A stretch of 32,742 nt of DNA from Bacillus rhizoplanae. Its GTDB lineage: Bacteria > Bacillota > Bacilli > Bacillales > Bacillaceae_G. The stretch's first letter is position 1, and each line of letters starts with the position of its first letter. The notes under the pieces are model-generated. The model was not told the origin of the DNA and searched no databases. It worked only from the letters and a program-made list of their open reading frames with translations. The position numbers and the translations under genes were made by a program. Shown in pieces: positions 6,318-32,674 of this stretch. Location: contig NZ_CAKJTI010000034.1 of assembly GCF_917563915.1 (NCBI RefSeq), positions 1-32,742 of the forward strand, in the 5' to 3' direction.

Positions 6318-8033
<1,716 letters not shown>

Positions 8034-20829: not shown

Positions 20830-22332
20830 CTAATTCGTACTGATGCCTCGCGCTGTCCAAATACGATCAATTTCCGCGCCATGCTGTCCTCCGTAAAGAA
20901 GAGCATCCGCTTGTTTAATCGCTCTCGCACCGTCACGGAACGTAGCGTTAGGAGTAAGGGACCAATGCGATTGCAAAATGATTTTTGTCGCAATATCGCG
21001 GCCAAAAGCTTGCGCCATATCATACTCACCTTGCGACCAAATTTCGCCGTCCGCATGAACTTCATTTACAATGTCTTTTGGATACACTTTATTATCGTCC
21101 AATCTGCGAAGACAAGTTGGGTTCGTATTTGAATAAGAAGTCGAATCCCATTCTCCGATACACGCTTTTCCATAACTTGTTCCTGATACAGCATCTTCAT
21201 AAGTAGCTCCCAAGAAATCCCCAAAGCCTTCTCCCATGGCTCCACCTTCTGAAGAATTCCCAAACCCAGGAACTTGATTATCTTGAATAGAATGACCATA
21301 TTCATGAGCAATAACCCCTGCATCTTCCGCATCATCAACTCCGCCGGAACCGAATGTCAGCGCCTTAGTCGAAGGGGAATAAAAAGAATTATCGGCTTTA
21401 TATGTATTCACATTCGCTTTAATAGAACGATTGTTAATATTATTAAAGCCTAGCTGTTGTATATACCGTTGCAAAGTATCAATGTGATAATATGTCATAA
21501 CATCTTCAAATCTATCATTTGAACGTGTGTAATTATATTGAAGAGAGGCAGAATACGTTTTTACTTTCGACGTAATCGTCACATAGTCTCCAATTAAATA
21601 TCCTGATCCATTAAGTCCTTTTAAAGTGACCGTTTTTAGTTGATTATTCAATCCAGTAGAGTCTGCATCATTATTGTCAGTCAGTCCAACCAAACTTCCA
21701 CTCGTTGCTACAGGATTTGGCAGGAACACTTTTCCTTGCCCTTCTGCTTTTCGGTTTAAGTCTTTTTTCTTAAGCAGTTTTCCGTTTTCCGCATCAATAA
21801 ATGTTTCCCACGCACCGAACGGCTTTTGAGAGTGGATAACAACCCGATACGCTGGAATTGCCACACCTTCTTCGACTATATACCCGAACTCACGCGTAGT
21901 TGGAGCCCATAGATTTGGATCGTCAGCTTCAATATACTGACTAGATTTGCCTTCTGCTTCCTTTTCACTCAATTTCTGCTTAATTTGCTTGACGCTCTGT
22001 ACAGGAAGGTAATCCGAAACTGCTAATATACCTTGTCCTCCTTTATTGAGCGTAACGGTTACTTGCCTAGAAAACACAGGAGATCCATTTACTGTTTGTT
22101 GAAATCTAACATAAGATGCCACCTGTGTATCTGTCGTAGAAACATATTGCAAATCTGATAAATCCGCCTTTAAAGAATACTGAGCAGCGTTCGCTTTTAA
22201 ATATTCGGTTGCCTGTACTTGAGGCGAAACTGCCTGTACCTTTACTTGTGTTTCCTCTACTGCAGAAGCAGTGGACATAATACCAAAAACCAACGGAATT
22301 GCCGTTGCAACCGCGACAACTTTTTTCAACAA
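20830..22332 (-). CDS. Secreted M36 (fungalysin-like) metalloprotease
   Basis: About 500 residues. A signal peptide (LKKVVAVATAIPLVFGIMST, cut after about ASA) is followed by an FTP-type propeptide (about 30-195) and the catalytic domain. The zinc site is HEYGH (about 343-347) with Glu368 in AMGEGFGDFLG. The downstream EVHADGEIWSQ is the peptidase M36 signature rather than M4. It is therefore a second, unrelated extracellular metalloprotease besides the M4 gene. TTG 22332 is 9 nt from GAGGAGA; an upstream in-frame GTG (22341) touches that site, so it is less likely. A large palindrome precedes the ribosome site. Confidence 0.85.
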   Translation of the reverse strand: MLKKVVAVATAIPLVFGIMSTASAVEETQVKVQAVSPQVQATEYLKANAAQYSLKADLSDLQYVSTTDTQVASYVRFQQTVNGSPVFSRQVTVTLNKGGQGILAVSDYLPVQSVKQIKQKLSEKEAEGKSSQYIEADDPNLWAPTTREFGYIVEEGVAIPAYRVVIHSQKPFGAWETFIDAENGKLLKKKDLNRKAEGQGKVFLPNPVATSGSLVGLTDNNDADSTGLNNQLKTVTLKGLNGSGYLIGDYVTITSKVKTYSASLQYNYTRSNDRFEDVMTYYHIDTLQRYIQQLGFNNINNRSIKANVNTYKADNSFYSPSTKALTFGSGGVDDAEDAGVIAHEYGHSIQDNQVPGFGNSSEGGAMGEGFGDFLGATYEDAVSGTSYGKACIGEWDSTSYSNTNPTCLRRLDDNKVYPKDIVNEVHADGEIWSQGEYDMAQAFGRDIATKIILQSHWSLTPNATFRDGARAIKQADALLYGGQHGAEIDRIWTARGISTN

Positions 22333-22346
22333 AACTATCACTCTCC

Positions 22347-25994: not shown

Positions 25995-26990
25995 TTAGTT
26001 TATAAGAAGAAGATATGGAAAATTGATTAAAAACTCAAATTTTACAGGTCTTAAAAATAAATCTTTTAATGTTTCTTCTGCATTCTTACTCTCAAATATT
26101 ATCTCATATAAGGCATTACAAATCGGGAGTTGAACGTCATAATGAATGGATAATACCCTTAATGCTTTTATAGTTGCAATACCTTCTGCTAATTTTCCAA
26201 ACTTTTTTCCTTCAACTAATGCCTGTCCATATTTTCTATTATGACTATTATCCGAGAATAATGTTGCTTCAAAGTCTCCTAGATGACTCAATCCATATAC
26301 AGTTACATCATTTCCACCCATTGCTCTAACTAGACGAGAGATTTCCCTTGTCCCCCTTGCCATAAGTGAACCTTTTAAACTGCTATAATTTAATCCATCT
26401 AACATTCCTGCTGCTATACCCATAACATTTTTTGTAGCAGCCCCAATCTCATTTCCAATAAGGTCTTGCCCATAGTAGAATCTAATTAAATCACTATTCA
26501 ACTCTTGTACAATTTTTTTTGTTACTTCAATATTTTCAGAACCTATAACCATACAATTTGGTATATTATTCAAGAAATCTTGCACGTGTCCAGGTCCTAC
26601 CCATACTGCTGTATTTATATTTTTTCCAACCTCTTCCCCAAATACTTGAGAAAGTCTTTTACCACTATTAGCCTCTAATCCTTTCATACATAAAATAAAA
26701 GTTTTACCTTGTATTGCATTTAATGAGCTTAATTGATTTGCAAAGGAACGTAATTCTTGAGCACTAATGGAAATAATTATTATTTCAGCATATAATATGG
26801 CTTTTTCTAATGAGTTTGTTAATTCTACATCTTCTGGTAATGAAAGATAATCATTTCTTCTGGTCTCTTTTAACCCAATGAAATTTCTGGAGTTCTCTCT
26901 CCCCCATAGCATAACATTGTGTCTAACTTTATTAGCATACCAAGCCAAAAAGGTTCCCCAACGTCCACAACCTAAAACTGAAATATTCAA
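25995..26990 (-). CDS. Glycerol-3-phosphate dehydrogenase paralogue (GpsA-like)
   Basis: About 331 residues, full length for GpsA. The Rossmann nucleotide motif is at the N-terminus (ISVLGCGRWGTFLAWYANK, G-x-G-x-W-G). The catalytic lysine region is EIGAATKNVMGIAAG, followed by the substrate loop GLSHLGDFEATLFSDNSHNR (usually GDL-x-T-C-x-S-x-x-S-R-N). The Leu/Thr/Cys changes there may alter substrate preference. TTG 26990 is 5-6 nt from GAGGGTGA and gives the usual MNISVLG start; ATG 27023 adds 11 residues with a poor site. It is probably a second copy besides the housekeeping gene and lies next to the amine/amide operon, divergent from nothing. Confidence 0.8.
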   Translation of the reverse strand: MNISVLGCGRWGTFLAWYANKVRHNVMLWGRENSRNFIGLKETRRNDYLSLPEDVELTNSLEKAILYAEIIIISISAQELRSFANQLSSLNAIQGKTFILCMKGLEANSGKRLSQVFGEEVGKNINTAVWVGPGHVQDFLNNIPNCMVIGSENIEVTKKIVQELNSDLIRFYYGQDLIGNEIGAATKNVMGIAAGMLDGLNYSSLKGSLMARGTREISRLVRAMGGNDVTVYGLSHLGDFEATLFSDNSHNRKYGQALVEGKKFGKLAEGIATIKALRVLSIHYDVQLPICNALYEIIFESKNAEETLKDLFLRPVKFEFLINFPYLLLIN

Positions 26991-27233
26991 TATTTCACCC
27001 TCATCTTTTTTAAAATTTATCATTCTCTATTTAATAATAGCTCTGTCATCTCCTAAAGGAAAAAGAGTTGAATTTTTTTATATGGACAAGGGGTATATTC
27101 GACTAGCTTTATAAAATATCCTCCCCCTGTAGGCTAAGTCCTCTAACCTCTTGAACAAACATACATTCCCTAAACATAATATACATCTTATATTTTTTTA
27201 ATCACTTGTTATCTGATATATCATGTAAGAAAA

Positions 27234-27431: not shown

Positions 27432-28778
27432 TTAAAACCTGGAAGAGAATAGCCTTAATTCCCAATCGCTTACTTGCCTAATATATTTATTCCATTCTGA
27501 TCTTTTAATTTTAATAAATTCCTCCCAGATTGATCTCCCAATAGTTTCAGCCAAGATTGTGTCTTCTGCTAAATGCCCTACTGCTTGATTTAAGTTTCTC
27601 GGCCCCCAAGAAATTCCTCTTTCTTTTAATTCAATATCATCTAACTTACTTATATCCACATCCATCGGTTCACCTGGATCCATTCTGTTTTGAATCCCAT
27701 GGAGGCCTGAAGCTACTAAACAAGCTGCAAGCAAATATGGATTGCACGTTCCATCAGCACCTCGAAATTCAAATCTTCTTGCCCTTGCTTTGTCAGGGAT
27801 TCTTACTAATACAGAGCGATTTCTAGCTCCATAACAGATGTGGGCTGGTGCCCAAGATCCTGACTGCATCCGTTTATACGAATTAATACTAGGAGCACCG
27901 ATTGCAATTAGAGATGCACCGTGTTTCAAAAGTCCACCTATAAAATGATACGCTTTTTCAGACATATCCAACCCTCTTGAATCTGTGGCATCCTGGAAGA
28001 TATTCTCACCAATTTTATCAAATATACTAATATGAACATGCAGTCCATTGCCCGGCAAGTGTTGAAATGGTTTAGGCATTAATGTGCCTATCATCCCTTT
28101 GTCCCTAGCAATCTGTTTAAATAAATGCATAAATGTTACTTGATCATCTGCCGCCTTCAAAGCAGGAGCATATTTCAAATTTATCTCTAATTGCCCAGGG
28201 CCATACTCGCTAGAAATTTGTTCTGTTTGAACACTCATCTTTTCCAAGGAACAAACAAAATCCTGAACAAAGTCTTCTTGGATGTCTATGCCTTCTGTAG
28301 AGAAGCAATGGCTCTTGTCTGCCGGCTCAAGCTTCCCATCTATTTCTTTCAGTAAATAAGCTTCCTGTTCAAATGCCATATACATTTTTCCGCCCAAGAG
28401 TGTTTCCGCTTCCGAAAGCAGACGCTTCAATGCACTTCTTGGACATCCCTCCCATGGCTCTCCGTTTTCATCAACTAAATCACAAAGCATTCTTGCTGTA
28501 TTTTTCCGATAAGGAAGGATAGCGAAGGTACTTGGATCAGGTACCGCAAAGAAATCTCCATCGTTTGCTCCATACGTAGGGTTGGGAATATATTCATCAA
28601 AACAATCAAAACTCATAATTGCTGTACTAAAGTTAATTCCTTTTTCCATTGCGCTGTTAAGCTGGGAAGTACGAATTGTTCTTCCTCTCGTCATACCGGC
28701 ATAGTCTAAAAATTCCACTCGAATAAATTCAATATTTTCTTGTTCGACGATTTTTAAAACGTTTTCTTTTGTTAACAT
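27432..28778 (-). CDS. Glutamine-synthetase-like gamma-glutamyl-amine ligase (FluG C-domain / PuuA type)
   Basis: 448 residues. Metal and ATP residues of the GS fold are present: Glu137 (FEQE), Glu191 and Glu198 (SEYGPGQLE), His247 (GNGLHVH), Asn299-Arg303 (INSYKR), Arg321 region (NRSVLVRIP) and Glu337/Arg339 (RRFEFRG). The ammonium-binding Asp of true GS (F-D-G-S-S) is replaced in GINFSTAIMS (Ser51), which argues against glutamine synthesis and for ligating an organic amine to glutamate. No adenylylation-type tail is visible. The ATG overlaps the M20 stop by 7 nt (ATGTTAA). It is the last gene of the operon. The actual amine is unknown. Confidence 0.85.
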   Translation of the reverse strand: MLTKENVLKIVEQENIEFIRVEFLDYAGMTRGRTIRTSQLNSAMEKGINFSTAIMSFDCFDEYIPNPTYGANDGDFFAVPDPSTFAILPYRKNTARMLCDLVDENGEPWEGCPRSALKRLLSEAETLLGGKMYMAFEQEAYLLKEIDGKLEPADKSHCFSTEGIDIQEDFVQDFVCSLEKMSVQTEQISSEYGPGQLEINLKYAPALKAADDQVTFMHLFKQIARDKGMIGTLMPKPFQHLPGNGLHVHISIFDKIGENIFQDATDSRGLDMSEKAYHFIGGLLKHGASLIAIGAPSINSYKRMQSGSWAPAHICYGARNRSVLVRIPDKARARRFEFRGADGTCNPYLLAACLVASGLHGIQNRMDPGEPMDVDISKLDDIELKERGISWGPRNLNQAVGHLAEDTILAETIGRSIWEEFIKIKRSEWNKYIRQVSDWELRLFSSRF

Positions 28779-29977
28779 GTTGATTGTCCCCCTTTTAGTA
28801 ATCTTCTTAGTACACTATAAGTAAAGATCTTAACGCCAACTGCAATAATCTGATCATCAAATTGAAACTCAGGATGATGTAAATCATAACAAGGCTGATC
28901 TGTTTGTCTAATACCTAATCGGAAATAGGTACTCGGAACCTTTACAGCAAATGCTCCAAAGTCATCTGCACCCATTGAAGGATCTTTCAGTACATAAACT
29001 GCATTCACACCTAATAATTCCTTCATTCCTTCTTCAATGCTACGAGTTAATGCTTCTTCATTTATTACCGGCGGGTGGCTATATGTATACGTAATATTTG
29101 CTTGGGCTCCATACGAATTCACTATACCTTCGACCAGTTGAATAATTTGTGATTTTATCTTCTGTCTCGTTTCCATGGTTATGGTTCTTGTTGTTCCTTC
29201 TAGAACTACCTGATCCGCAACTACATTACTTGCCGTCCCGCCTTGAATTTTCCCGACATGAACCACTACCGGCTCGATAGGATTATGACTTTTCGTGACA
29301 AGAAGAGACAGAGCCTGAAGAACATTAGCGCTAATGGCAATAGCGTCAATACCTTGGTGCGGACGTGCACTATGCCCGCCTTTTCCCACTATTTCAATCA
29401 CGAAATTATCACAAGAAGCCGTAATTGTACCGTGTTTGATACCAACCGTTCCGAATGGTAAATGGGGCCATAAATGAAGGGCAATCATTTCATCGATCAA
29501 AGGATTTTCCAACACTCCTTTTTGTATCATTTCTTCTGCTGCGCCATCCGCTTCTTCACCCGGTTGAAAAATACAACGAACTCGTCCGCTAAATCTATGT
29601 TTTAATTGAAATAACTGATAAACTGTCCCTAATAAAATAGCGGTGTGGCCATCATGCCCGCAAGCATGCATGACTCCATAATTTTGAGAAGAAAAGGAAA
29701 GGTCCGTTTTTTCTTCAATCGGCAACGCATCGATGTCTGCCCGCACTCCAATATGCAATCCCTCACCCATTTCGCCAATAATATCAACGACAATCCCTGT
29801 TTCTGCAACTTTTTCGTACGGAATCTTCCATTCTTGCAAGCATGAAATGATATACTCGCACGTAGCGTATTCCTGAAATGAAAGTTCCGGATACTGGTGG
29901 ATATGTCTTCGAATACGAGTCAACTGTTCTGTCATTTCCTTACTCAATTCTATGTCTTGTTTTTCAATGGTTTTCAA
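28772..29977 (-). CDS. M20 family amidohydrolase (HipO/AmhX type)
   Basis: About 401 residues. The di-metal motifs of M20D peptidases are complete: RADIDALPIEE (Asp about 81), HACGHDGHTA (about 104-113), FQPGEEADGAAEEM (Glu pair about 141) and the late DLHHPEFQFDD. Relatives cleave N-acyl amino acids or amino-acid amides (hippurate, IAA-conjugates, N-acetyl derivatives). The ribosome site GGGGGG is 9 nt from TTG 29977; the in-frame TTG 30001 lies before it. The start lies inside the permease gene end (14-nt overlap), so all three downstream genes are coupled. It probably releases an amine, amino acid or acid from the imported or glutamylated compound. Confidence 0.87.
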   Translation of the reverse strand: MKTIEKQDIELSKEMTEQLTRIRRHIHQYPELSFQEYATCEYIISCLQEWKIPYEKVAETGIVVDIIGEMGEGLHIGVRADIDALPIEEKTDLSFSSQNYGVMHACGHDGHTAILLGTVYQLFQLKHRFSGRVRCIFQPGEEADGAAEEMIQKGVLENPLIDEMIALHLWPHLPFGTVGIKHGTITASCDNFVIEIVGKGGHSARPHQGIDAIAISANVLQALSLLVTKSHNPIEPVVVHVGKIQGGTASNVVADQVVLEGTTRTITMETRQKIKSQIIQLVEGIVNSYGAQANITYTYSHPPVINEEALTRSIEEGMKELLGVNAVYVLKDPSMGADDFGAFAVKVPSTYFRLGIRQTDQPCYDLHHPEFQFDDQIIAVGVKIFTYSVLRRLLKGGQSTC

Positions 29978-31328
29978 TGTGTTCAGCCCCCCCTTTTTCA
30001 ATTTCTATCTTCCCTGCTTTAATTTTTTGAAGCACAAACATATATATAGCCCCTATGAGAAGCCAAACAGATCCGATTTCAATCGCAAGCCGATCCATTC
30101 CATACACTACATAACCGATAATAATTAACCCAAAAAGAGGAAATACAAGGTGTTGAATAAATTTTTTTGATTTTTGGCGAATGATATAATGATTAATTAC
30201 TGAAATATGCAATATAAGAAAACCAACCAACGCTCCAAAATTAACAATATTCGTTAACATCCCAATGTTATTTTCAAACGCCATTCCTACAGAAAAAGAA
30301 ACAATAGCCACTAGAAAAGTACTAATATATGGTGTTTGAAATCTCGGATGAACTTTTGCGAATACAGAAGGCAATTTACGATCCCGTCCCATGGAATAAA
30401 GAAGTCGGGAGATGGCTGCCTGAGATGCAAGCGCACTGGCAATTCCCCAAGAAAATACTGTCGCAATGAGTGTCAAATTCTTTAACCAACTACCTCCAGC
30501 CAATTCAGCTGCTTGATAGAAAGCTGTATCTAAATTTTCAATTTTTAATCCGCGGCTAAGATCACTTGCGACCCAGGTTTGAGATATAAACAATACGCCT
30601 GCAATCAACAAAGTAAGAACTGTAGCTCTACCTACAATTTTGTTGCCTCCTTTTACTTCTTCAGAAAGTGTGGAAATGGCATCAAAACCTAAAAAGGATA
30701 GCACCGCTATTGAAACTGCCCCCATAACCATGTGTAGATTAAACTTGCTGGAATCATATATAGGTTTGATTGTTAGGCTAGTACCGTCTACCCCTTTATA
30801 TAAAGCGATCAGCCCGAATATAAGAAAAATAACTAAAACCATAAATTGTAAAACCAAAATAATTTTATTTGCTTTTGCGGTAAATTCTACCCCGCGAATA
30901 TTAATGAAGGTATTAAAGGAAATAAAGAGAACCAACCAAAACCAAACCGGCACTTCTGGAACCATTCCCGCTAATGAAACTGCGCTGACAACATAAGTTA
31001 AAGCAGGTACAAGAATGTAATCTAGCAAGATTCCCCAACCGGCAAGAAAACCAACATACTCATTGATCCCTCTTTGTGCATAGGTGTAAACGGAACCTGC
31101 CATCGGAAAAGCTTGGGACATTTTAGCGTAGCTCAGGGCCGTAAAAATCATTCCAATCATACCAATGATATAAGTAAGGGCGACCATACCCTTCGAAGTG
31201 TCAGAGATATAGCCAAACACACCAAATGGAGCAATAGGAACCAAAAAAATCAGCCCATAAAATACAAGATCCCAAAATGTTAATGTCCTTTTTAATTCCT
31301 GTTTATAACCGAATTGTTCGATTGACAT
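29964..31328 (-). CDS. APC family amino acid/amine permease (PuuP-like)
   Basis: 454 residues with 12 membrane helices. TM1 LTFWDLVFYGLIFLVPIAPF and the unwound-helix segment are of the APC superfamily; SFLGFDAISTLSEEVKGGNK is its TM6 substrate-site signature. The sequence resembles putrescine and amino-acid importers. It lies 18 nt after the amidohydrolase gene, with GGAGGAG before the ATG. Its position suggests it imports the operon's substrate. Confidence 0.87.
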   Translation of the reverse strand: MSIEQFGYKQELKRTLTFWDLVFYGLIFLVPIAPFGVFGYISDTSKGMVALTYIIGMIGMIFTALSYAKMSQAFPMAGSVYTYAQRGINEYVGFLAGWGILLDYILVPALTYVVSAVSLAGMVPEVPVWFWLVLFISFNTFINIRGVEFTAKANKIILVLQFMVLVIFLIFGLIALYKGVDGTSLTIKPIYDSSKFNLHMVMGAVSIAVLSFLGFDAISTLSEEVKGGNKIVGRATVLTLLIAGVLFISQTWVASDLSRGLKIENLDTAFYQAAELAGGSWLKNLTLIATVFSWGIASALASQAAISRLLYSMGRDRKLPSVFAKVHPRFQTPYISTFLVAIVSFSVGMAFENNIGMLTNIVNFGALVGFLILHISVINHYIIRQKSKKFIQHLVFPLFGLIIIGYVVYGMDRLAIEIGSVWLLIGAIYMFVLQKIKAGKIEIEKGGAEHIENH

Positions 31329-31346
31329 CCTTAGCTCCTCCTTCTA

Positions 31347-32516
31347 TCAAATATTAAATTGCAGGTTCTTTTTGTAAACCCTTTCAAAATTTCTAAACAA
31401 AACCATTTCGCCAATCCATTGGGCTGTTTCCACATTCATATAATCAGAGTCAACCCAAGTATTTAAAACTTTCTCAAAACATTCCTTAAATAAATACACT
31501 CCTAACCAATTCATTTCAGGCACAGTAAAAGCATCCGACCCATACATAACTTTATCGAAAGGAGCAAATTCAAACACTTGAGAAAGAATTCGTTGAACTC
31601 CATGACCTGCGAAAGGATTTTGCAGCGAAATATCCATATAAACATTTGGGAGAATACTTACAATAAAAGCCGCTTCCTCAACCCAGGGATATCCCCCATG
31701 AACAAGGTGAACCTTAGTATCGATGTATTTTTTATCCCTAAGCATGTTTATTAGAAAACTCGGACTCGCTTTCGGTAAAACAACTTCTCCATCTCCAACA
31801 CCAGTATGAATATGCATAACCTTATCTGCGGCTGTACATTCTTCCAGCGCAATATGAAGGCAATAGTCACGAAAAGCTTTCACTTCTGCCCGGTCGTTCG
31901 TTTGAAATTCTCGGTATTGATCTCGGGCCATTTGTTCATTCATCTCTGAGATTTCCAGCCCACTTCTATAAGCAATAATCGATTTTAAACCGATAACATC
32001 AGATTTCTGTAAAGCTTGTCTTAAATCTGTACGATACCTTTCACTAAATTCCTCGAAACGGTCACATTCTTTGCATAAATGAACCATAACAGGTTCAATT
32101 CTATGAATTTCCCATATTTTTGCTCCACACAGATCTGCAAACTCATCTTTACTTAACATCGGCATTGGATATCCAAAATCAGTTACAACTCCAGTAATCT
32201 TAGCGTCCTGAAACAAATTCCTTGTATATCCCCTAAAATCACCAGCATATTTATTTCTGTTATTTACTACATCCATCAAGTTAGGCTCACATGAAAAATA
32301 TTTTGCAAGTCGTTGAATCAAAATCTGAATCCACATATTAATTCCCGGAAAAGGTTGATTCTTATTTTGTATATAGTTGTTTGTAGCTCGGGTGGGTATA
32401 ACAGATAAAGATAGTTTCCTAACAAACTCCTCTACTGTGTAAGGTTCTTGATTACCAACAAAAGGATGAGCATGTACATCAATAGCATGAATATGTTGTA
32501 AAGATACTTTATTCAT
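31347..32516 (-). CDS. Amidohydrolase of the FluG N-domain / ACMSD-like type
   Basis: 389 residues, a TIM-barrel amidohydrolase. Metal motif HAH (His15, His17 in AIDVHAHPF), a central GLKS (Lys178), HIHTGVGDGE (His235, His237), VHGGYPW (His273) and the late MYGSDAF (Asp328) are in the order of the amidohydrolase-2 family. In fungal FluG and plant NodGS this domain is fused ahead of a glutamine-synthetase domain; here the GS-like partner is a separate gene in the same operon. It is the first gene behind the sigma-54 promoter, with GAGGT before the ATG. A hydrolytic or decarboxylating step is likely; the substrate is unknown. Confidence 0.85.
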   Translation of the reverse strand: MNKVSLQHIHAIDVHAHPFVGNQEPYTVEEFVRKLSLSVIPTRATNNYIQNKNQPFPGINMWIQILIQRLAKYFSCEPNLMDVVNNRNKYAGDFRGYTRNLFQDAKITGVVTDFGYPMPMLSKDEFADLCGAKIWEIHRIEPVMVHLCKECDRFEEFSERYRTDLRQALQKSDVIGLKSIIAYRSGLEISEMNEQMARDQYREFQTNDRAEVKAFRDYCLHIALEECTAADKVMHIHTGVGDGEVVLPKASPSFLINMLRDKKYIDTKVHLVHGGYPWVEEAAFIVSILPNVYMDISLQNPFAGHGVQRILSQVFEFAPFDKVMYGSDAFTVPEMNWLGVYLFKECFEKVLNTWVDSDYMNVETAQWIGEMVLFRNFERVYKKNLQFNI

Positions 32517-32550: not shown

Positions 32551-32567
32551 ATGCAACATTCATGCCA
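32551..32567 (-). promoter_or_regulatory. Sigma-54 (SigL) -24/-12 promoter
   Basis: On the minus strand the sequence is TGGCATGAATGTTGCAT, differing by one base from the TGGCACG-N4-TTGC consensus. GG and GC are exactly 10 nt apart as required. Transcription would start near 32541, about 25 nt before the amidohydrolase ATG. Confidence 0.85.
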
Positions 32568-32650
32568 AATAAAAAATACCAATTATATTAAGGTTTTCTT
32601 TGAATTTCATAAAATATAAATATGAAAAATATTCTCCAAATGAAAAGTAT

Positions 32651-32674
32651 TCATAGAAAAATATTTTTCTATGA
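32651..32674. promoter_or_regulatory. Perfect 24-bp palindrome, likely enhancer-binding-protein site
   Basis: The half-site TCATAGAAAAAT is followed directly by its exact reverse complement. It is centred about 120 nt upstream of the predicted sigma-54 start, the usual distance for an upstream activating sequence. The activator gene is not in the window and may lie just beyond it. Confidence 0.7.

Follow-up and report, generated by a model that had tools for sequence, protein, structure and literature searches.

The 32,742-nucleotide window from Bacillus rhizoplanae analyzed here (contig NZ_CAKJTI010000034.1) holds a minus-strand operon of four genes, which encode an amidohydrolase (AH), an APC permease, an M20 hydrolase and a ligase related to glutamine synthetase (GS). 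We consider that it probably functions as a sigma-54-controlled, substrate-induced catabolic operon that scavenges nitrogen through gamma-glutamylation. The evidence comes from the co-inheritance of the genes, a -24/-12 promoter with repeated candidate activator-binding sites upstream of the first gene, and the active-site residues of the ligase and the AH.

Gene content and co-inheritance

The AH gene (31347-32516, minus strand; 389 residues, FluG-N/2QPX type, PF04909 Amidohydro_2 by profile search) is the first of the operon. It is followed on the same strand by an APC permease of a PuuP-like subfamily (29964-31328; 454 residues, PF13520/PF00324 amino acid permease by profile search), an M20 amidohydrolase/aminoacylase (28772-29977; 401 residues) and the GS-like ligase (27432-28778; 448 residues, PF00120 Gln-synt_C), which we predict to be a gamma-glutamyl-amine ligase. 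The M20 protein passes the curated cut-off of TIGR01891 (368.6 bits against 153.75). Successive genes are spaced by 18, -14 and -7 nt, the second value applying to an M20 start at TTG 29977; the longest open reading frame (ORF) of that gene, 28772-30001, begins at a TTG at 30001, and the shorter form is our tentative preference. AH and GS-like ligase are encoded by different ORFs in the window, as they are in all 22 relatives described below, with no fusion of the FluG/NodGS kind.

The operon genes are inherited together. Among 398 Bacilli genomes, AH matches at E <= 0.001 occur in 24, of which 18 show at least 59% identity and the others no more than 31%. The GS-like protein is present at E <= 1e-150 in 18 genomes, the same 18 that carry the close AH (hypergeometric probability ~1.5e-31 under an assumption of independent genomes that does not hold), and the M20 protein at E <= 1e-100 in 15, each time at the operon; these thresholds are our choice. 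The close M20 is absent from three of the 18, namely two three-gene genomes and G172, in which M20 and GS are broken up. In six genomes checked, the best M20 paralog outside the operon has an E-value of 1.9e-90. Within the family of genome G003, AH matches at E <= 0.001 are found in 10 of 39 genomes, one of them (G207, 8e-4) negligible. A contig scan with the AH yielded three loci: an uncultured Brevibacillus metagenome-assembled genome (76% identity) has the same four-gene order, and the other two (63%) have AH-APC-GS and lack M20. The four genes thus form a real unit, and their co-occurrence rules out a chance cluster.

An earlier note on this DNA, made from its letters and ORF list, had described four same-strand genes in this order, with these gaps, at 27432-32516. 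The ORF list bears this out, and Pfam and NCBIfam profile matches agree with the four families that it had named. It had also offered co-occurrence in other genomes as a test of its proposal, which the operon passes. Our analysis supports a co-inherited operon that combines an importer, a noncanonical GS-like ligase and two hydrolases; the substrate class suggested in the note, an amine, amide or N-acyl compound, is a possibility.

The window was compared with 22 operon loci, all distinct, of which the class search contributed 18 and the family search four, and with three distant loci. One repeat of the L005 locus (L061) was dropped, and a fragmentary match in G400 (L062), which holds none of the genes, was not counted; the family scan covered part of the neighborhood ORFs. 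The order AH-APC-M20-GS is retained in 16 of the 22 relatives, including one with an inserted transposase-like ORF and one decayed copy, while two have AH-APC-GS without M20 and four have AH-M20-GS without a recognized APC gene. The permease itself is PuuP-like in six relatives, belongs to an unrelated subfamily (21-23% identity to that of the window) in 12, and is not recognized in four. Neither the importer nor the M20 gene is a fixed component of the operon; both are exchangeable. Additional genes are present at some loci. A class III pyridoxal phosphate (PLP) enzyme gene is full-length in eight relatives, fragmented in two more and absent from 12. A class-I GATase gene of a subfamily other than that of PuuD occurs in two, directly after GS (17 nt) in L043 and, in L051, behind both GS and the class III gene. 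A second M20-family gene (ArgE/DapE-type) follows GS by 41 nt in L048, and an SDR dehydrogenase gene follows it by 15 nt in L057. The three distant loci (AH 28-30% identical) have adjoining GS and AH genes and an APC-like match each; Pfam scans of their neighbors revealed nothing recurring.

The interrupted copy (L039) is the second one in genome bin G001, which contains two operon versions; its AH and APC genes are separated by the transposase-like ORF, whose Pfam match is just under the gathering score. In the decayed copy of G172 (L047), M20 and the GS-like gene are fragmented and an activator gene was not recognized, but the promoter discussed below is still exact.

Promoter, candidate activator sites and activator

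A sigma-54 (-24/-12) promoter, TGGCATGAATGTTGCA, is located by pattern match at 32552-32567 on the minus strand, at a position similar to that in relatives. The pattern TGGCAYGNNNNTTGCW has this single match in the window, 51 nt upstream of the AH start, and one match was obtained in 3 of 100 shuffled sequences. By the -24/-12 criterion, the window operon is predicted to be sigma-54-dependent. The promoter precedes AH in 17 of 23 loci, the window included, with 14 exact matches and three with one mismatch, at 33-62 nt from the AH start; these distances are approximate for L039 and L047, as they are for L048 and L049, since the start position used there is not a start codon. Elsewhere, only two exact matches occur in 981,364 strand-bases. 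The carriers are 14 loci with a close activator, the window, L039 and L047. None of the three distant loci has the pattern.

Upstream of the promoter, a motif search identifies a palindromic candidate activator-binding site, GAAAAATATTTTTC, at 32656-32669 on the minus strand within the palindrome 32651-32674, and a second candidate with two mismatches, GGAGAATATTTTTC, at 32624-32637 on the same strand. The motif was first seen in the window and L005. At least two upstream copies with up to three mismatches are found in 18 of the 19 loci tested, a set that excludes the four APC-less loci and includes the two from which the motif was derived, which are therefore not independent; the upstream region of L047 has no such site at this tolerance. 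In total, 59 matches (overlaps counted) fall within 5,986 nt of upstream sequence versus 44 in 356,264 nt elsewhere, and 200 mononucleotide shuffles give a mean of 2.1 and a maximum of 7.

A divergent sigma-54 activator gene accompanies the operon in 16 of the 22 relatives. Fourteen of these activators are the L005 protein itself or at least 56% identical to it, and two are just 29-34% identical. The L005 activator is composed of PAS, AAA+ and Fis domains. The earlier note was right about gene content, but missed the regulation, both the promoter and activator-type sites of the window and the divergent activator of the relatives, as well as their class III PLP gene.

Enzymes and proposed pathway

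The best NCBIfam match of the ligase is gamma-glutamylputrescine synthetase (NF045547), and its score against the GlnA model is 354.5 bits, under the cut-off of 429.15. When the protein is aligned with B. subtilis GlnA and glutamate-methylamine ligase, the ammonium-site residues Asp50, Tyr179 and Glu327 of type I glutamine synthetases (GSI) are occupied by Ser51, Cys158 and Trp309; the correspondence to B. subtilis positions is our own reading of the alignment. Among 16 aligned operon ligases from the 23 loci, Asp50 is replaced by Ser and Tyr179 by Cys in all 16, and Glu327 by Trp in 14 and Phe in two. Furthermore, Glu137, Glu139, Glu191, Glu198, His247, Arg303, Arg321 and Glu337, which we take to be the metal, glutamate and ATP residues of GSI, are invariant in all 24 aligned sequences. 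The loss of the three ammonium-site residues makes a gamma-glutamyl-amine ligase of the PauA7/GlnA4 type the most likely prediction. According to the available text of PMC6529630, PauA7 and GlnA4 are changed at the same three positions, with Glu327 replaced by Trp in PauA7 and Phe in GlnA4.

It is very improbable that the gene encodes an ordinary or regulatory glutamine synthetase with incidental neighbors. Its membership in the GS family is clear and it resembles true synthetases such as B. subtilis GlnA, but the uniform change of the ammonium site leads us to reject a canonical synthetase. Moreover, three genomes checked contain other GS-family genes, mostly at 29-37% identity, and the gene was not found without AH in the 398 genomes at the thresholds used.

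By sequence, 2QPX (E 4e-30) is the sole convincing solved relative of the AH; four more are listed, with E-values of 0.45 or higher. The AH model (predicted local distance difference test score 89.6) also has 2QPX as its top structural match (TM 0.83/0.86, E 2.5e-22), with 4I6V (E 1.6e-10) and uronate isomerases far weaker. Residues His15, His17, Lys178, Tyr183, His237, His273 and Asp328 are invariant in 25 of 25 sequences. Judged from this alignment, the AH keeps the metal-site set of FluG and 2QPX; the portion of PMC6478659 at hand gives the same His, His, Lys (carbamylated in 2QPX), Tyr, His, His, Asp set for both proteins in its Table 2 and names 2QPX as the structure used for the N-terminal half of FluG. 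The best solved relatives of the M20 protein are YxeP, 4EWT and IAA-amino acid hydrolase, together with N-alpha-acyl-glutamine aminoacylase. The CGHDGH motif of M20 amidohydrolases is shared by 14 of the 15 aligned rows and missing only from the M20 of Haladaptatus (21% identical).

The window permease is 35% identical to E. coli PuuP, and it has matches at E <= 1e-100 in 46 of 398 genomes, at 50 places. Of the 46 places outside the operon, 20 were fetched, mostly the best-scoring and thus a nonrandom set. An acetamidase/formamidase gene is nearby in 16 of these 20 loci, a GS-like gene (28-32% identical to that of the window) in 11 and a sigma-54 activator gene in 11; all three are present in 10. 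These 10 loci (L097, L098, L101, L103, L105-L108, L110 and L112) constitute a sister operon, in which the activator is divergent from GS-like, acetamidase/formamidase (FmdA) and APC genes, with the order of the latter two varying. In six of them, an exact match to the sigma-54 promoter lies close to the position taken as the GS start, compared with five exact matches in 469,152 strand-bases elsewhere. The acetamidase/formamidase gene was not found in four of the 20 loci (L104, L114, L115 and L116). The layout of L116, SDR-GS-aldehyde dehydrogenase-APC-SDR, may recall gamma-glutamyl alkanolamine breakdown.

From this gene set we infer the following pathway. The inducer would be sensed by a PAS-domain sigma-54 activator, whose gene is divergent in most relatives and is predicted to lie immediately beyond the window; this activator would bind the GAAAAATATTTTTC-type sites and fire the -24/-12 promoter. 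The PuuP-like permease would then import a small cationic amine, which the GS-like enzyme, as its residues suggest, would convert with ATP and glutamate to a gamma-glutamyl amide rather than forming glutamine. The binuclear-metal, FluG-type AH may hydrolyze another C-N bond in the glutamylated intermediate, after which the M20 enzyme could remove the glutamyl (N-acyl) group to release glutamate and a usable product. The class-I GATase-type enzyme of two relatives could perform the latter task instead.

The order of these reactions could also be reversed. The imported compound would be an amide, a lactam or an N-acyl conjugate, from which M20, AH or both first free an amine. Gamma-glutamylation of this amine by the ligase would then serve either to detoxify it or to prepare it for Puu-type oxidation, with the oxidizing enzymes encoded at other places in the genome. 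We regard this scheme as rather unlikely. The assignment of M20 to TIGR01891 and its solved relatives among aminoacylases and amino acid conjugate hydrolases speak for it, as does the proposal in the text seen of PMC6478659 that the AH product of FluG could feed its ligase half. On the other hand, tblastn searches with E. coli PuuB, PuuC and PuuD (E <= 1e-4) found no homolog in 438,253 bases covering the window and the 22 relatives, and the regular association of the permease subfamily with GS-like ligases fits the import of a free amine; neither point is decisive.

A further alternative concerns compounds with both an amine and an amide group, such as amino-acid amides and alpha-amino lactams. 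After import by the permease and, in some genomes, interconversion of stereoisomers by the racemase-like PLP enzyme, the ligase would cap the amine with gamma-glutamate, the AH would open the amide or lactam, and M20 or the GATase would remove glutamate from the gamma-glutamyl amino acid so formed. Amino-acid-amide and caprolactam racemases may be the closest solved counterparts of the class III enzyme in the relatives: the L005 protein scores 395-399 bits with four chains named only "Aminotransferase class-III," 393 with 6gio ("Amino acid amide racemase") and 374 with 2zuk (ACL racemase), compared with 237 for the best named gamma-aminobutyrate (GABA) aminotransferase. The proximity of permease relatives to acetamidase/formamidase genes and the lack of Puu-type oxidation genes in the loci point in the same direction. 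We nevertheless judge this pathway unlikely; if true, it would explain why FluG and NodGS fuse the two activities.

Finally, the operon could serve a polyamine pathway like that of Streptomyces, in which putrescine or a similar compound is glutamylated, oxidation occurs elsewhere and the FluG-type AH is the final gamma-glutamyl hydrolase. SCO6960, SCO6961 and SCO6962 (GlnA3) are polyamine-induced and SCO6961 is proposed as that hydrolase, as stated in the parts available of PMC5403932 and PMC9397018. The similarity of the permease to PuuP and the top model of the ligase are consistent with this pathway, and the PuuE tblastn matches are the class III genes, the full-length ones of eight relatives being 31-34% identical. 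Yet the ligase is just 28% identical to PuuA and falls well short of the synthetase cut-off, 12 of the 22 relatives have the other permease subfamily where the window has the PuuP-like one, and GABA aminotransferases give the class III enzyme lower scores than racemases do. We consider a polyamine pathway quite unlikely.

Returning to sigma-54-controlled nitrogen scavenging through gamma-glutamylation, several points weigh against it. The genomes are related and partly near-identical, so that the counts overstate independence. The ligase scores 401.1 bits against NF045547, below the cut-off of 650. With two unrelated APC subfamilies and four relatives in which no APC gene was found, the importer fixes no single substrate. 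M20 is missing in two relatives and a full-length PLP gene in 14 of 22, so the last two steps may differ or be reordered; in L057, the SDR gene makes an oxidation step possible. The promoter pattern was not found in six of the 23 operon loci, two of which nonetheless hold a divergent activator gene. For the window itself, the sequence ends 226 nt upstream of the AH start, with no long ORF in this stretch, and the activator, if any, is expected beyond that end.

Elsewhere in the window, a GpsA-like glycerol-3-phosphate dehydrogenase gene lies downstream of the operon (25995-27023); it scores 223.8 bits against a subfamily cut-off of 202, and none of the matches listed reaches an equivalog cut-off. 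The window also encodes a clear M4 thermolysin-type peptidase (6372-8033) and a second peptidase of M36/M4 type with a weaker match (20830-22341).

Comparison with known systems

The operon shares with E. coli Puu a PuuP-like importer, a GS-like ligase and, in some relatives, a class III PLP gene. It differs in its lack of a PuuB, PuuC or PuuD homolog at the 23 loci, which leads us to reject a full Puu pathway, in hydrolases of other families and in its sigma-54 promoter. The tblastn searches thus uphold the view of the earlier note that the genes do not match Puu. The sister operon is closer in some respects, with the same permease subfamily (50-69% identity), a GS-like ligase, a sigma-54 activator and an amide hydrolase, but FmdA replaces AH and M20, and its ligase is only distantly related to that of the window.

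In S. coelicolor, the AH gene SCO6961 (Amidohydrolase-2 family) adjoins the gamma-glutamylpolyamine synthetase gene SCO6962 (glnA3) in a polyamine-induced cluster with SCO6960, whereas the available portions of PMC5403932 and PMC9397018 mention neither an APC nor an M20 gene in that cluster. The GlnA4 ethanolamine route (SCO1611-1615) likewise gamma-glutamylates a monoamine, with a later hydrolytic step catalyzed by an enzyme of the formylglutamate-amidohydrolase family; as proposed in the accessible text of PMC6529630, it also includes two dehydrogenases, and none is encoded in the window operon. In Allomeiothermus, GS and AH have an N-formylglutamate amidohydrolase gene as their neighbor. 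An archaeal cluster on a Haladaptatus plasmid (L002) consists of two GS-like genes, a FluG-type AH, an APC gene, a distant M20 gene and a hypothetical protein. Its permease is 45% identical to the second permease type, but its M20 is too divergent for it to be the same operon, and we treat it as a parallel assembly at the family level. DNA similarity of the window to plasmids is mainly in the APC gene.

The bacterial AH-ligase pair is already known, and the four-gene operon and its regulation appear to be new. Among the matches listed in a literature search that was thin on subscription journals, no publication was found on the four-gene sigma-54 operon, its activator-type sites or the sister GS-FmdA-APC operon, and the main text of the sigma-54 survey PMC3162934 does not mention amidohydrolase or Brevibacillus.

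Work on Aspergillus FluG as a regulator of development goes back to the 1990s, and plant NodGS is a fused amidohydrolase-ligase, although a literature search for NodGS and amidohydrolase found no paper. Both enzyme families of these fusions are present here, as the earlier note had recognized in calling the operon a split FluG/NodGS system. The "split" need not hold, given that AH and GS are also separate neighboring genes in S. coelicolor, Deinococcus, Allomeiothermus and the archaeon Haladaptatus; this distribution suggests that the fused form is derived. In the available text of PMC6478659, the halves of FluG are known to match separate bacterial enzymes, FluG is also said to lack the acidic ammonium-site residues, and its pathway, the activity of its AH half and that of 2QPX are called unidentified. 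The operon differs from FluG and NodGS in its two separate genes, importer, M20 hydrolase and sigma-54 promoter. With the same two families in one compact unit, together with an importer and a predicted inducer-sensing switch whose promoter and candidate binding sites are defined, the substrate becomes searchable, and the inducer of the operon is probably that substrate or a compound close to it.

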